Assembly: GCF_900106035.1 (NCBI RefSeq)
Contig: NZ_FNUC01000004.1
Span: 992,001-1,056,000, forward strand
From: Jiangella alba
GTDB taxonomy: Bacteria > Actinomycetota > Actinomycetes > Jiangellales > Jiangellaceae
Reading direction: 5' to 3'
Length of the DNA stretch: 64,000 bases
Within the stretch, counting starts at the first letter, position 1; each line of letters starts with the position of its first letter. Below, in pieces: positions 14,764 through 57,421 of the stretch. A program made the position numbers and the translations under genes. The notes below the pieces were generated by a model. The model was given only the letters and a program-made list of their open reading frames with translations, ran no database searches and was not told the DNA's origin.

Positions 14764-14831
14764 TTGCAATGAGCACCCATACGCACCACCCGGGTGGGCG
14801 CGGAGGTGGTGCGTATGGGTGCTCATTGCAA
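14764..14831. repeat. Palindromic element, locus 1 (27-base arms)
   Basis: Perfect inverted repeat: arms 14764-14790 and 14805-14831 with a 14-base loop. The core is TTGCAATGAGCACC then CATACGCACC, mirrored as GGTGCTCATTGCAA. It lies just after the RraA-like stop and could fold as a bidirectional terminator between convergent genes. It has no T-tract. The same core occurs at 55749-55869 with a compensating base change in both arms. Confidence 0.85.
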
Positions 14832-14978
14832 GGGGAGCTGACGGCGCTCAGGGCGCGCACCGCGGCGTCGACGCGGACGTGGTGCGTATCGGTGCTCATT
14901 GCAAAGGCGAACCGACCGCACTCAACGTCCGCACCGCGGCCTCGACACGGACCCGGTGCGCATCGGTGCTCATTGCAA
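14821..14978. repeat. Tandem 73-74 base repeat carrying copies of the EIIA gene end
   Basis: GCTCATTGCAA recurs at 14821, 14894 and 14968, i.e. with periods of 73 and 74 bases. Read leftward, each unit ends in a version of the EIIA C-terminus (AAVRxLSAVxSPLQ, stop). The copy nearest EIIA is almost identical. The far copy differs mainly at synonymous positions and has lost one base near its stop. The units begin ATGAGCACC and overlap the preceding stop as ATGA. Confidence 0.85.
14896..14973 (-). other. Repeat-encoded mini-ORF, 25 codons
   Basis: An open frame starting MSTDAHRVRV and ending LSAVGSPLQ. Its ATG overlaps the EIIA stop codon (ATGA) and its own stop overlaps the ATG of the next repeat unit. 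It is almost certainly a by-product of the tandem duplication, but the geometry would allow re-initiation by ribosomes finishing EIIA. I do not claim it is a gene. Confidence 0.3.
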
Positions 14979-15416
14979 AGGCGAACCGACCGCACTCAAC
15001 ATGCGCACCGCGGCCTCGCGATCCGGCGCCTGACGCAGCTGGTCGGCGAGACCGTCGAGCAGGTGCTCGGCGAGATTCTGCAGCAGCGCCAGGTGCGCGG
15101 CGTCGTCCGGGGAGCCGAAGGCCAGCACGACGTCGACGGGGTCGTTCTCGTCGTGGCCGAACTCCACCGGCGTCGCCAGGACGGCCACCGACAGACACAG
15201 CGCCAGCGCGCCGTCCTCGGGCCGGGCGTGCGCCAGCGCGATGCCCGGCGCCAGCACCATGTACGGCCCGTGCTCCTCGGCGATCGCGATGCATCGCTCC
15301 GGATAGCGCGGCTCCAGCGCGCCGTCGCTGACCAGCGGCGCGCAGGCCGCGTGCACCGCGCCGCGCCAGTCGGCGGCGCGCACGTCGACGACGGCGCCGA
15401 TGACGGGGGTGGTCAC
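14970..15416 (-). CDS. PTS EIIA component (mannitol/fructose/ascorbate type)
   Basis: A 148-residue cytoplasmic PTS EIIA-2 domain; His63 in APGIALAHARPEDGA is the phosphoryl-accepting residue. The GTG start overlaps the EIIB stop (GTGA). It would pass phosphate from HPr to EIIB of the adjacent ascorbate-type system (UlaC-like). The last three codons, TTG CAA TGA, are the core of a palindromic repeat, so the C-terminal tail REAAVRMLSAVGSPLQ is shared with the downstream tandem copies. The original stop may have been replaced when the element arrived. Confidence 0.88.
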   Translation of the reverse strand: MTTPVIGAVVDVRAADWRGAVHAACAPLVSDGALEPRYPERCIAIAEEHGPYMVLAPGIALAHARPEDGALALCLSVAVLATPVEFGHDENDPVDVVLAFGSPDDAAHLALLQNLAEHLLDGLADQLRQAPDREAAVRMLSAVGSPLQ

Positions 15417-55748: not shown

Positions 55749-55869
55749 TTGCAATGAGCACCTATACGCACCGTGCGCGGCCGGTGCGTATAGGTGCTCA
55801 TTGCAAGGCGGCCGGTGCGTATCGGTGCTCACTGCAAAAGCGGCCGGTGCGTATCGGTGCTCATTGCAA
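55749..55869. repeat. Palindromic element, locus 2, with three tandem units
   Basis: Arms 55749-55772 and 55783-55806 form a perfect 24-base inverted repeat (core TTGCAATGAGCACC, then TATACGCACC) with a 10-base loop. Two further units in the same orientation as the right arm follow at 55814-55837 and 55846-55869, so the period is 31-32. Between them is GGCC/AGCGGCC, copying the end of the adjacent sigma-factor gene. The sigma gene ends TTG CAA TGA inside the last unit. Confidence 0.88.
55829..55864 (-). other. Repeat-encoded mini-ORF, 11 codons
   Basis: MSTDTHRPLLQ, stop. Its ATG overlaps the sigma-factor stop as ATGA, exactly the geometry of the mini-ORF in locus 1. A by-product of the repeat; not claimed as a gene. 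Confidence 0.25.
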
Positions 55870-56787
55870 AGCGGCCGGGAGGTCGAAGGCCGGGAACAGC
55901 TCCGGGCCGAACGTGGTGATCTCGGCGATCAGCCCGTCCTCGACCCGGAGCACGTCGATCTTGAAGGCGTCGAACGTCGCCCCACCCGGCAGGCGCAGGT
56001 AGCAGGCGGCGGCCGGCAACCGGTTCGCCGACGTCGGCAGCAGCCGCCAGTCGCCGTGCTCGGCCGCCGCGGCGTGCAGCGGCGCCAGCGCGGCCCAGCC
56101 GTCGAAGCAGACCGGCTGCGGCGGCATGGTGACGCGGATGTCGTCGCGGACGAGCTCGGCCATGCGGCCGACGTCGGGCCGCTCGCTCAGCGCGACGTAG
56201 CGGTCGAGCAGGTCGCGCTCGTCGGCGCTGAGCACCGTCCGCGGCGGGGTGGTCTCCGGCGACCGAGGCGAGCGCTGCAGCGTCGCCCGGGCCCGTTGCA
56301 GCGCGCTGTTGACCGCGGGCACCGACGTCTCCAGGATCGCCGCGGTCTCGGCGGCCGACCAGCCGATCGCGTCGCGCATGACGAGGACGGCGCGCTGCTG
56401 CGCGGGCAGTTCCTGCATGGCCGCGACGAACGCCAGCTCGATCGTCTCGCGGCCGACGACGACGGCCTCCGGCTCGTCCGCGTGCGGCGCGACCTGGTCG
56501 AGCAGCCGGTCCGGGTACGGCTGCAGCCACGGCACCTCGGCGAACGAGCGCACCTGCTCGGGCCGCCGGGACCGCAGCCGCAGCAGGTCGAGACAGGCGT
56601 TGGTCGCGATGCGGTAGAGCCACGCCCGCAGGTTGGTGCCCTCCTCGTAGGAGTCGCGGTGCGTCCACGCCCGCAGCAACACGTCCTGGACGACCTCCTC
56701 GGCGTCGTCGAACGAGCCGAGCATGCGATAGCAGTGCACGTGCAGCTCGCGCCGGTGCCCCTCGGCGGCGGCCGTGAAGTCGTCCAT
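55861..56787 (-). CDS. ECF sigma factor with SnoaL-like C-terminal domain (TIGR02960/SigG-like)
   Basis: 308 residues. Sigma region 2 is CYRMLGSFDDAEEVVQDVLL with RAWLYRIATNACLDLLRL; region 4 is LPAQQRAVLVMRDAIGWSAA followed by ETAAILETSVPAVNSALQRA. A C-terminal SnoaL/NTF2-like domain (residues about 190-305) is typical of ECFs that are regulated by their own extension, not by an anti-sigma factor. CAGAAT is 6 bases before the ATG. The last codons come from the palindromic repeat. Confidence 0.9.
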   Translation of the reverse strand: MDDFTAAAEGHRRELHVHCYRMLGSFDDAEEVVQDVLLRAWTHRDSYEEGTNLRAWLYRIATNACLDLLRLRSRRPEQVRSFAEVPWLQPYPDRLLDQVAPHADEPEAVVVGRETIELAFVAAMQELPAQQRAVLVMRDAIGWSAAETAAILETSVPAVNSALQRARATLQRSPRSPETTPPRTVLSADERDLLDRYVALSERPDVGRMAELVRDDIRVTMPPQPVCFDGWAALAPLHAAAAEHGDWRLLPTSANRLPAAACYLRLPGGATFDAFKIDVLRVEDGLIAEITTFGPELFPAFDLPAALQ

Positions 56788-56853
56788 CGGGACATTCTGC
56801 AAGTCGTTCGCTCCGGACCGATGAGTCCGCGGCCGGAGTGTCGTTACACGGGC

Positions 56854-57421
56854 ATGAACACACTCGTACTGGACATCAGCATCTCCCTCGACGGCTTCAT
56901 CACGGCGGCCGGGCAGACCCCCGACCAGCCCCTCGGCCAGGGTGGCGAGCGCCTGCACGACTGGGTCGGCACCGACGCCGGCCGCGACGTGCTGAACGAC
57001 GGCATCGGGCGGCTCGGCGCGGTCATCACCGGCCGCCGGAACTACGACGACTCCGTGCCATGGTGGGGTGCGGACGGCCCGTCCGGCCCGGCCCGCCGGC
57101 CGGTGTTCGTCCTGACGCACGAGGCGCCGGAGGAGTCGCCGGAGAACGGCGTCTACACCTTCGTCACCGGCGGCATCGAGGACGCGTTCGCGCAGGCCGC
57201 AGCGGCGGCGGGCGACGGCGCGGTCTGCGTCATGGGCGGCGCCGACGTCGCCCGGCAGTACCTCGCCGCCGGCCTGGTCGACGAGATCTCGCTGCACGTC
57301 GTGCCGGTGCTGTTCGGCGACGGCACCCCGCTGTTCGACCGGGCCACGACCGCCCACGTCGAGCTCGAGGCCGTCAGCACGAACCAGACCGACGCGGCCA
57401 CCCACCTGACCTACCGCGTGG

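Follow-up and report, generated by a model that had tools for sequence, protein, structure and literature searches.

The stretch of DNA analysed here (the window, G000:C4:992001-1056000) is a 64-kb part of the 7.68-Mb genome of the soil bacterium Jiangella alba (G000), and it was compared with a set of 12 Jiangella genomes including G001 and G010. At one of two sites in the window, here termed locus 2, a cluster of palindrome arms lies between a sulfatase gene (PF00884, 53580..55745, plus strand), which terminates 3 nt short of the left arm, and a convergent ECF sigma factor gene on the minus strand (55861..57405, start putative; Sigma70_r2, Sigma70_r4_2 and SnoaL_2 domains). The left arm, TTGCAATGAGCACC-TATA-CGCACC (55749..55772, minus strand), contains one of the genome's 126 exact 14-mers. 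It is separated by a 10-nt loop (gtgcgcggcc, 55773..55782), which is different in the G001 orthologue, from a first right arm of the same TATA class (55783..55806, plus strand), with which it pairs; the RNA hairpin of these two arms has a calculated energy of -53.2 kcal/mol (z -9.84). A second right arm of the GATA class, with one mismatch in the 14-mer (55814-55837, plus strand), lies together with the spacer aagcggcc in 55807..55845 (plus strand) and is followed by a third right arm, also GATA (55846..55869, plus strand). The right arms start at 55783, 55814 and 55846, that is, in steps of 31 and 32, and TRF reported a period of 31 with 3.3 copies and a score of 174, in agreement with the tandem period of 31-32 in the original prediction. 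The TGA stop codon of the sigma factor gene (55861..55863, minus strand) lies within the third right arm, and the protein ends in ..AALQ. In G001, the orthologous locus has one arm pair and no extra arms.

The second site of the window, locus 1, is located between a RraA-like gene (PF03737, 14069..14749, plus strand) and a convergent PTS EIIA-like gene (PF00359, minus strand, ORF 14970-15416). A left arm of the CATA class, starting at 14764, a 20-nt loop and a first right arm, also CATA, together occupy 14764..14831 and form a hairpin of -67 kcal/mol (z -10.57). The right arms start at 14808, 14881 and 14955 (steps of 73 and 74), the latter two belonging to tandem units of 73-74 bp that consist of flank and right arm (14832..14978, plus strand). 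The last right arm contains the TGA stop codon of the PTS EIIA-like gene (14970..14972, minus strand). The orthologous locus in G010 has a single arm pair with a loop identical except for one base, and the extra arms are missing from the orthologues in both G010 and G009; in G010, as judged by eye, flank DNA is present in tandem copies without arms. In G001 this locus contains no element. The claimed recurrence of the element at both sites was thus found with the coordinates and sequence as described, and so was the supply of the neighbour's stop codon by the repeat, with TGA inside the last arm at both loci.

The arm has the consensus CTTTGCAATGAGCACC-NN-TACGCA-Y-C and is followed by a loop of 0 to about 170 nt and then by the inverted arm; spelled fully, it reads TTGCAATGAGCACC plus four variable letters plus CGCACC. 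The loops between facing arms fall into classes of 0 nt (giving a 48-bp palindrome), about 8-30 nt and up to about 170 nt. The exact outer-arm 14-mer was found 126 times (63 + 63) in G000, and the reversed pattern, which served as control, 0 times. In the window, 13 arm matches with at most 3 mismatches were found vs. 1.98 expected and a shuffle maximum of 6. The arms of G000 form at least 57 clusters at up to 4 mismatches and 58 at up to 5 mismatches, the additional one being a lone chance match. The cluster sample consists of the window and 54 further G000 loci, and the matches listed contain a few more copies. Simple arm-arm pairs (inverted doublets) account for 41 of the 58 arm groups, one group being the chance match, and 55 of the 57 clusters lie outside called genes, the other 2 inside them. 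Locus 2 had been described as a second copy; both copies are real, but the description understated the family, which is not confined to two sites, as 57 clusters were read in G000. Hairpins of four copies gave energies of -50 to -67 kcal/mol and z-scores of -9.8 to -12.5, with a stem of about 25 bp and a foot that, by eye in the printed copies, is mostly (G/C)CTTTGC..GCAAAG(C/G). No Rfam family was detected in the 64-kb window at gathering scores. The original interpretation is partly supported as a whole, and its view of the palindrome as a REP/REPIN-like dispersed element is supported.

The position of the clusters relative to genes was determined with gene calls from a home-made codon score, which also underlies the background and stop-codon counts. 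The 57 clusters lie in convergent (26), tandem (23) and divergent (6) junctions and inside genes (2), whereas the junctions of at least 20 nt in a 446-kb block of G000, used as background, were 33 convergent, 119 tandem and 59 divergent (Fisher p 2e-6 for the convergent excess, p 0.008 for the divergent shortage). By a strict criterion, the arm supplies the stop codon of 5 genes in the 57 clusters (L058, L075, L077 and both window loci), and a less strict criterion adds L047. These five proteins end in Leu-Gln-stop because the arm contains TTG CAA TGA; in other reading frames the arm is open. That REPs can provide stop codons, and that their clusters can be reiterated together with flanking DNA, is already known from the available text of PMC3733652.

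Two further copies touch coding sequence in a different way. At L049 (2967-4268, minus strand) the C-terminal tail of an alanine racemase is read through the element, and its G001 orthologue, L154, likewise seems by eye to have an open frame. At L084 (2403-3641, minus strand; G000:C4:3716922) a loop-less copy lies in frame within the gene of an M20 peptidase, which we take to be AllC-like. This in-frame copy is present in G000 and G010 (L259) only and is missing from the same gene in nine other species aligned; relative to G008, the insert adds about 27 residues (..PLCNEHHDAPVRIGAHCKG..). Rickettsia palindromic elements sit in frame in protein genes, and the M20 copy is like them in being in frame in a protein gene, in two species, whereas here it is one clear case in 57 clusters, the family lying otherwise at or between gene ends.

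One-arm arrays are present at six places in G000 (both window loci, L032, L038, L043 and L056), besides a doubled left arm at L061 and duplications of the whole element at L054, L066 and L076; the extra-arm patterns at L037, L078 and L080 are seemingly chance or overlapping matches. Tandem units with flank were counted at about 10 of 57 clusters in G000, at 1 of 45 in G001 (L182) and at 0 of 17 in G010, with the 3-arm patterns of L167 (G001) and L185 (G010) taken as chance matches. The longest array (L043, 3001-3325) has a single right arm and eight left arms, the latter with a period of 38-39. Five of the one-arm arrays were compared for sequence common to loop and flank, and each has a short one, namely gcggcc (window locus 2), ccgccga (L032), acccgccgg (L043), cccgcc (L056) and ggcgc (window locus 1); these come from GC-rich DNA and are given without a null. 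The tandem units with gene-end DNA were probably generated by local slippage between short repeats bracketing one arm, with the hairpin perhaps helping. The suggestion that the element multiplies together with its flank is not supported: the dispersed copies have no common flank, and the units that include flank are local tandem expansions, almost confined to G000.

The two loci of the window had been said to differ by a compensating change. With the arm letters read from outside to inside, this applies to the innermost pairs, which are CATA/CATA at 14764/14808 and TATA/TATA at 55749/55783, but the outer right arms, GATA at 55814, 55846 and 14881 and GATG at 14955, mismatch the left arm. Across genomes, the NN letters of the two arms of looped copies (8-36 nt) were equal in 16 of 27 copies in G000 (4.7 expected), 16 of 21 in G001 (10.4 expected) and 10 of 12 in G010 (2.8 expected), each with p 0.0002. 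The corresponding numbers for loop-less copies were 9 of 25 in G000 (5.6 expected, p 0.05), 8 of 15 in G001 (7.3 expected, p 0.39) and 2 of 4 in G010 (1.3 expected, p 0.34), and all four variable letters gave the same picture of looped vs. loop-less copies as NN. Genome-wide covariation of the arms is hence seen in the looped copies, whereas the arms of the 25 loop-less copies of G000 vary nearly independently, so that the outcome named in advance as refuting occurs in part. As described in the accessible part of PMC8794818, template switching within a hairpin can keep the arms equal and yield paired changes. Since template switching can also give paired changes, covariation alone does not prove a function of the RNA.

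Exact 14-mers were found in 9 of the 12 Jiangella genomes and are numerous in three of them (126, 83 and 51, the last being G010); G002, G008 and G011 have none. The extended arm was found in 4 of 12 Jiangella genomes and in 0 of 10 other genomes of the order; this pattern requires GGTGC and therefore gives 0 in G010 despite its 51 exact 14-mers. A search with the 24-nt arm in a genome contig collection, from which near relatives of the window may be absent, matched 3 contigs, all from Jiangella (J. asiatica, J. endophytica and J. rhizosphaerae). In the available text of the J. gansuensis genome paper, CRISPRs are the sole palindromes mentioned.

The junction of locus 2 is occupied by different palindromes in different species. 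G001 carries the same family and G011 a decayed copy, whereas the palindrome is built around ATGATCATCAATGATC in G010 and G002 and around GTTGATCTTGGAG in G008, G009 and G005; nothing was found in G003, G004 and G007, and none was recognisable in G006. In a syntenic block, orthologues were located for 5 of 6 G000 element sites. At three of these five sites (J162, J171, J222) G008 carries a palindrome of another family, and at the remaining two it has none; in G010 three sites hold the family of G000, one holds a different family and one a gene insertion. By eye, the insertion at J171 of G010 is a nucleotidyltransferase/HEPN-like gene pair, located where G000 has the palindrome. Arms around AGTTGATCTTGGAG are lacking in G000 and number 74, 62, 58, 38 and 79 in G001, G004, G005, G008 and G009, respectively. 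In the locus 2 orthologues (L118-L128) and at other junctions, families around GTTGATCTTGGAG, ATGATCATCAA and TTGACnCCAGCGCCAA were observed in other species, the first being abundant in five Jiangella genomes and missing from G000.

Independently of family, inverted repeats with a score of at least 14 were counted in the blocks of three species. They are present at 7/20, 8/17 and 7/16 convergent junctions of 20-400 nt, vs. 5/100, 4/73 and 5/71 tandem and 2/51, 2/36 and 3/38 divergent junctions, and in none in one shuffle each. This suggests that gene 3' ends are a niche fillable by hairpins of several families.

To follow the element between species, 12 orthologous copies of G000 and its sister species G010 with both flanks matched were compared. 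Of 1290 aligned positions in the 60-bp flanks, 179 (13.9%) differ, and the loops differ at 24 of 167, whereas the outer 14-mer differs at 5 of 336 (1.5%) and TACGCA.C at 0 of 168. The copies were found by arm similarity, so that conservation of the 14-mer is inflated; TACGCA.C is less affected. The NN letters differ at 18 of 48 positions, and position 17 alone at 11 of 24 (p 0.0002 vs. flanks). Of the 24 arms, 22 have a different letter at base 23, and in 21 of these the G010 letter is T (p 3e-17 with positions treated as independent). Counted per locus, ten of the 12 have both arms changed, with T in G010, and the exceptions are L063 (T in both species) and L038 (A and T in G010). Synteny alone led to three of the G010 orthologues (J162, J181, J310); their 14-mers agree with those of G000 at all but 1 of 84 positions (by eye), and T is present in 6 of 6 arms. 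In this set L192 of G010 was paired with L081, which it matches at 95%, vs. 87% for L056. Four pairs were left out: L039/L190, where the G000 right arm is one base short (at base 23 G000 has C in one arm and T in the other, which thus already carries the change, and G010 has T in both); L054/L184 and L078/L186, where the loops are not homologous (both C in G000, T in G010); and L082/L187, for which the flank match is unconfirmed. L157 has no counterpart among the G000 loci read.

The inner 6-mer CGCATC was found in 26 of 29 G010 arms and in 7 of 136 G000 arms, whereas CGCACC was found in 114 of 136 arms of G000, 87 of 90 of G001 and 4 of 4 of G006. Because CGCACC prevails in these three genomes, T at base 23 is most simply derived in G010; some G000 copies (L063, L056) retain T at this position. 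The loops of the eight looped pairs are identical in two cases, differ by 1-2 letters in three and are partly alike in three (L038, L062, L066), and the copy within the M20 gene also carries the base-23 change in G010. Since copies with homologous loops and the M20 copy have changed, the new letter did not come in by simple replacement of these copies, and selection acting on the RNA at gene ends is insufficient as an explanation. Re-insertion at the same site is unlikely where the loops are homologous. A general C-to-T bias at CGCACC in G010 was rejected, as this motif occurs 193 times per 100 kb in the G010 block vs. 203 in G000; C-to-T differences between G000 and G010 at ACGCACC were raised, at 5 of 59 vs. 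1.4% overall, with the element copies included. The 14 copies compared between G000 and G001 differ at 192 of 1261 flank positions, at 17 of 28 for position 17 and at 0 of 392 for the 14-mer, the last largely by choice because the copies were picked from exact 14-mer matches. In G001 the TATA variant makes up 51 of 90 arms. No report of in-place change of orthologous REP copies was found in the accessible parts of the open-licence literature, including PMC3116915, PMC8049555, PMC3686654 and PMC3733652.

A RAYT transposase had been predicted for the genome. PF01797 matched in 0 of 12 Jiangella genomes (positive controls 5 of 14), which contradicts the prediction. The NCBIfam REP transposase model NF047646 gave 0 of 3 (G000, G001, G010), and 6 of 14 controls matched it, 1 of them over the cut-off. 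No GTAG/CGTC tag was seen at the stem foot in the printed copies. In REP systems the repeats flank a RAYT gene. The two elements of L078 lie about 2 kb apart, the sole such pair in the loci read, and the two genes between them encode an NAD(P)-binding protein and an APS kinase, with no transposase. Viral contigs contained 0 arm matches, and plasmids and phages only matches with E of at least 2. No autonomous transposon with these arms was found among the 100 of 126 G000 arms listed, the loci read and the listed matches to a form of about 180 bp.

This longer form is represented by six G001 copies (L162-L165, L167, L168) with the arms as terminal inverted repeats; 11 of their 15 pairs are alike over at least 187 columns at 71-87%. 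Among the matches listed, G000 has one relative over most of this form, at 82%. Terminal inverted repeats with related inner sequence were thus seen in the long G001 copies only and not in copies of 48-59 bp. By eye, the G001 copies of about 180 bp hold an inner inverted repeat, CTTGGC.CGGCTGGTCA. MITEs have terminal inverted repeats, a target-site duplication and an autonomous relative with a transposase. The G001 copies are alike in their terminal inverted repeats; unlike MITEs, no target duplication was made out and no autonomous parent was found, and most copies are barely more than two arms. A duplication of 3-4 nt is possible at L069 vs. G008 (by eye, in GC-rich flanks), and none is clear. 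The presence of the element differs between species, and no insertion event or intermediate was seen. Judged by sequence, the family probably descends from a MITE whose transposase would have been lost or undetected.

Taken from sequence comparison, the reading to which we give slightly better than even credence is that the arm would be read as DNA in trans by a putative sequence-specific agent, other than a known RAYT, within a REPIN-like, MITE-derived family. Such an agent would demand that most arm letters stay fixed while NN drifts, and a shift of its preference at Y (C in G000, T in G010) would show up in the two arms of almost all copies compared. Candidates for the agent are a chromosomal binding protein, a nuclease paired with a methylase, or an enzyme such as a transposase remnant or a different HUH enzyme. 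In looped copies the arms are kept equal, probably and most simply via template switching in the hairpin. Most copies are retained immediately downstream of gene 3' ends, where hairpins of several families replace one another between species and probably serve as terminators or 3'-end hairpins in both directions. More tentatively, and somewhat short of even confidence, we propose that a RAYT-less Jiangella palindrome population is read in trans and that a preference change in one species at one base pair would have changed the same letter in both arms of almost every copy, in place and including inside a protein gene, while position 17 differs at 3-4 times the flank rate. Against such an agent it has to be weighed that none was found, that its support consists entirely of substitution patterns, that selection at dozens of dispensable sites would need to be strong and that directed mutation or conversion could mimic the pattern.

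It is unlikely that the copies are instead two-way transcription terminators kept by RNA-hairpin selection, their shared sequence being a relic of past spread. The gene-end bias, the inverted repeats at convergent junctions, the exchange of hairpins there and the energies of -50 to -67 kcal/mol would all agree with this explanation. Intrinsic terminators without a U-tract form a strong hairpin at gene 3' ends, as is seen here, also at convergent junctions; in the present family, however, the sequence itself is largely fixed across loci and species, beyond structure. Structure alone explains neither the fixation of these letters nor the change of a single one in almost every copy compared. Moreover, the copy inside the M20 gene is read through, the arms are hardly coupled in loop-less copies, 0 of 132 arms have at least 5 T in 8 bases within 12 nt, and the other terminator searches, which cover loops of 3-8 nt only, found nothing.

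Homogenisation of the copies in each species, by ectopic gene conversion or by a re-inserted new master copy, appears rather improbable. It would account for the uniformity within species (TATA in 51 of 90 arms of G001, CGCATC in 26 of 29 of G010) and for the loops that differ in part (L062, L066, L081) or, in several G000/G001 pairs, are unrelated. However, the loops are homologous despite the base-23 change in both arms at L053/L188, L043/L193 and window/L248, NN is not uniform in G010, and L067/L250 changed only base 23 within the inner ten letters. An element-specific base change, e.g. methylation of a palindrome cytosine followed by C-to-T on both strands, seems improbable to the same degree: the changes are mostly C-to-T on each arm's own strand, symmetric and independent of loop and NN, the coding copy included, but methylation of a short motif is unlikely, the conservation of the other letters stays unexplained, L053 has A in G000 and T in G010, and L038 has A and T in G010. 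Very improbable is a REP/BIME population of the classical kind, mobilised by a RAYT transposase, for although inverted doublets, gene-end preference, flank-bearing tandem clusters and repeat-supplied stops are known for REPs (PMC3733652, as far as its available text extends), PF01797 and NF047646 gave no match in the Jiangella genomes searched, no GTAG/CGTC tag was seen, and there is no transposase between the L078 elements.

In REPIN/REP doublets, as in the present elements, two inverted arms and a spacer fold into a hairpin, outside genes and also in tandem arrays; those doublets have a RAYT, whereas none was found here, orthologous copies stay put and one letter differs jointly at almost all copies compared (PMC3116915, available sections). 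REPs tagged with GTAG/CGTC similarly lie mostly between convergent and unidirectional genes, form clusters reiterated with flank and supply stop codons, and the CGTC REPs are likewise without a dedicated transposase; they supply TAG, in contrast to the TGA, the Leu-Gln ends, the stem of about 25 bp and the lack of any tag seen here (PMC3733652, available sections). Coevolution of RAYTs and REPs is known for gammaproteobacteria from the accessible text of PMC2817692, and the accessible text of the RepRanger paper (PMC12306157) contains no mention of Jiangella or RAYT. The uniformity of short palindromic repeats within bacterial genomes is usually ascribed to RAYTs, of which the searches here detected none. 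Copies that are fixed in place while one letter changes would constitute a natural experiment on the reading agent, and the exchange of families at convergent junctions hints that different repeats of this kind share gene 3' ends as a niche.

A further family was observed at J337 in G000, G008 and G010. Its loop is largely fixed (GCTGCGGGCGTCCGAGCGAG..), and its arms change together between species, which is the reverse of the family studied here.
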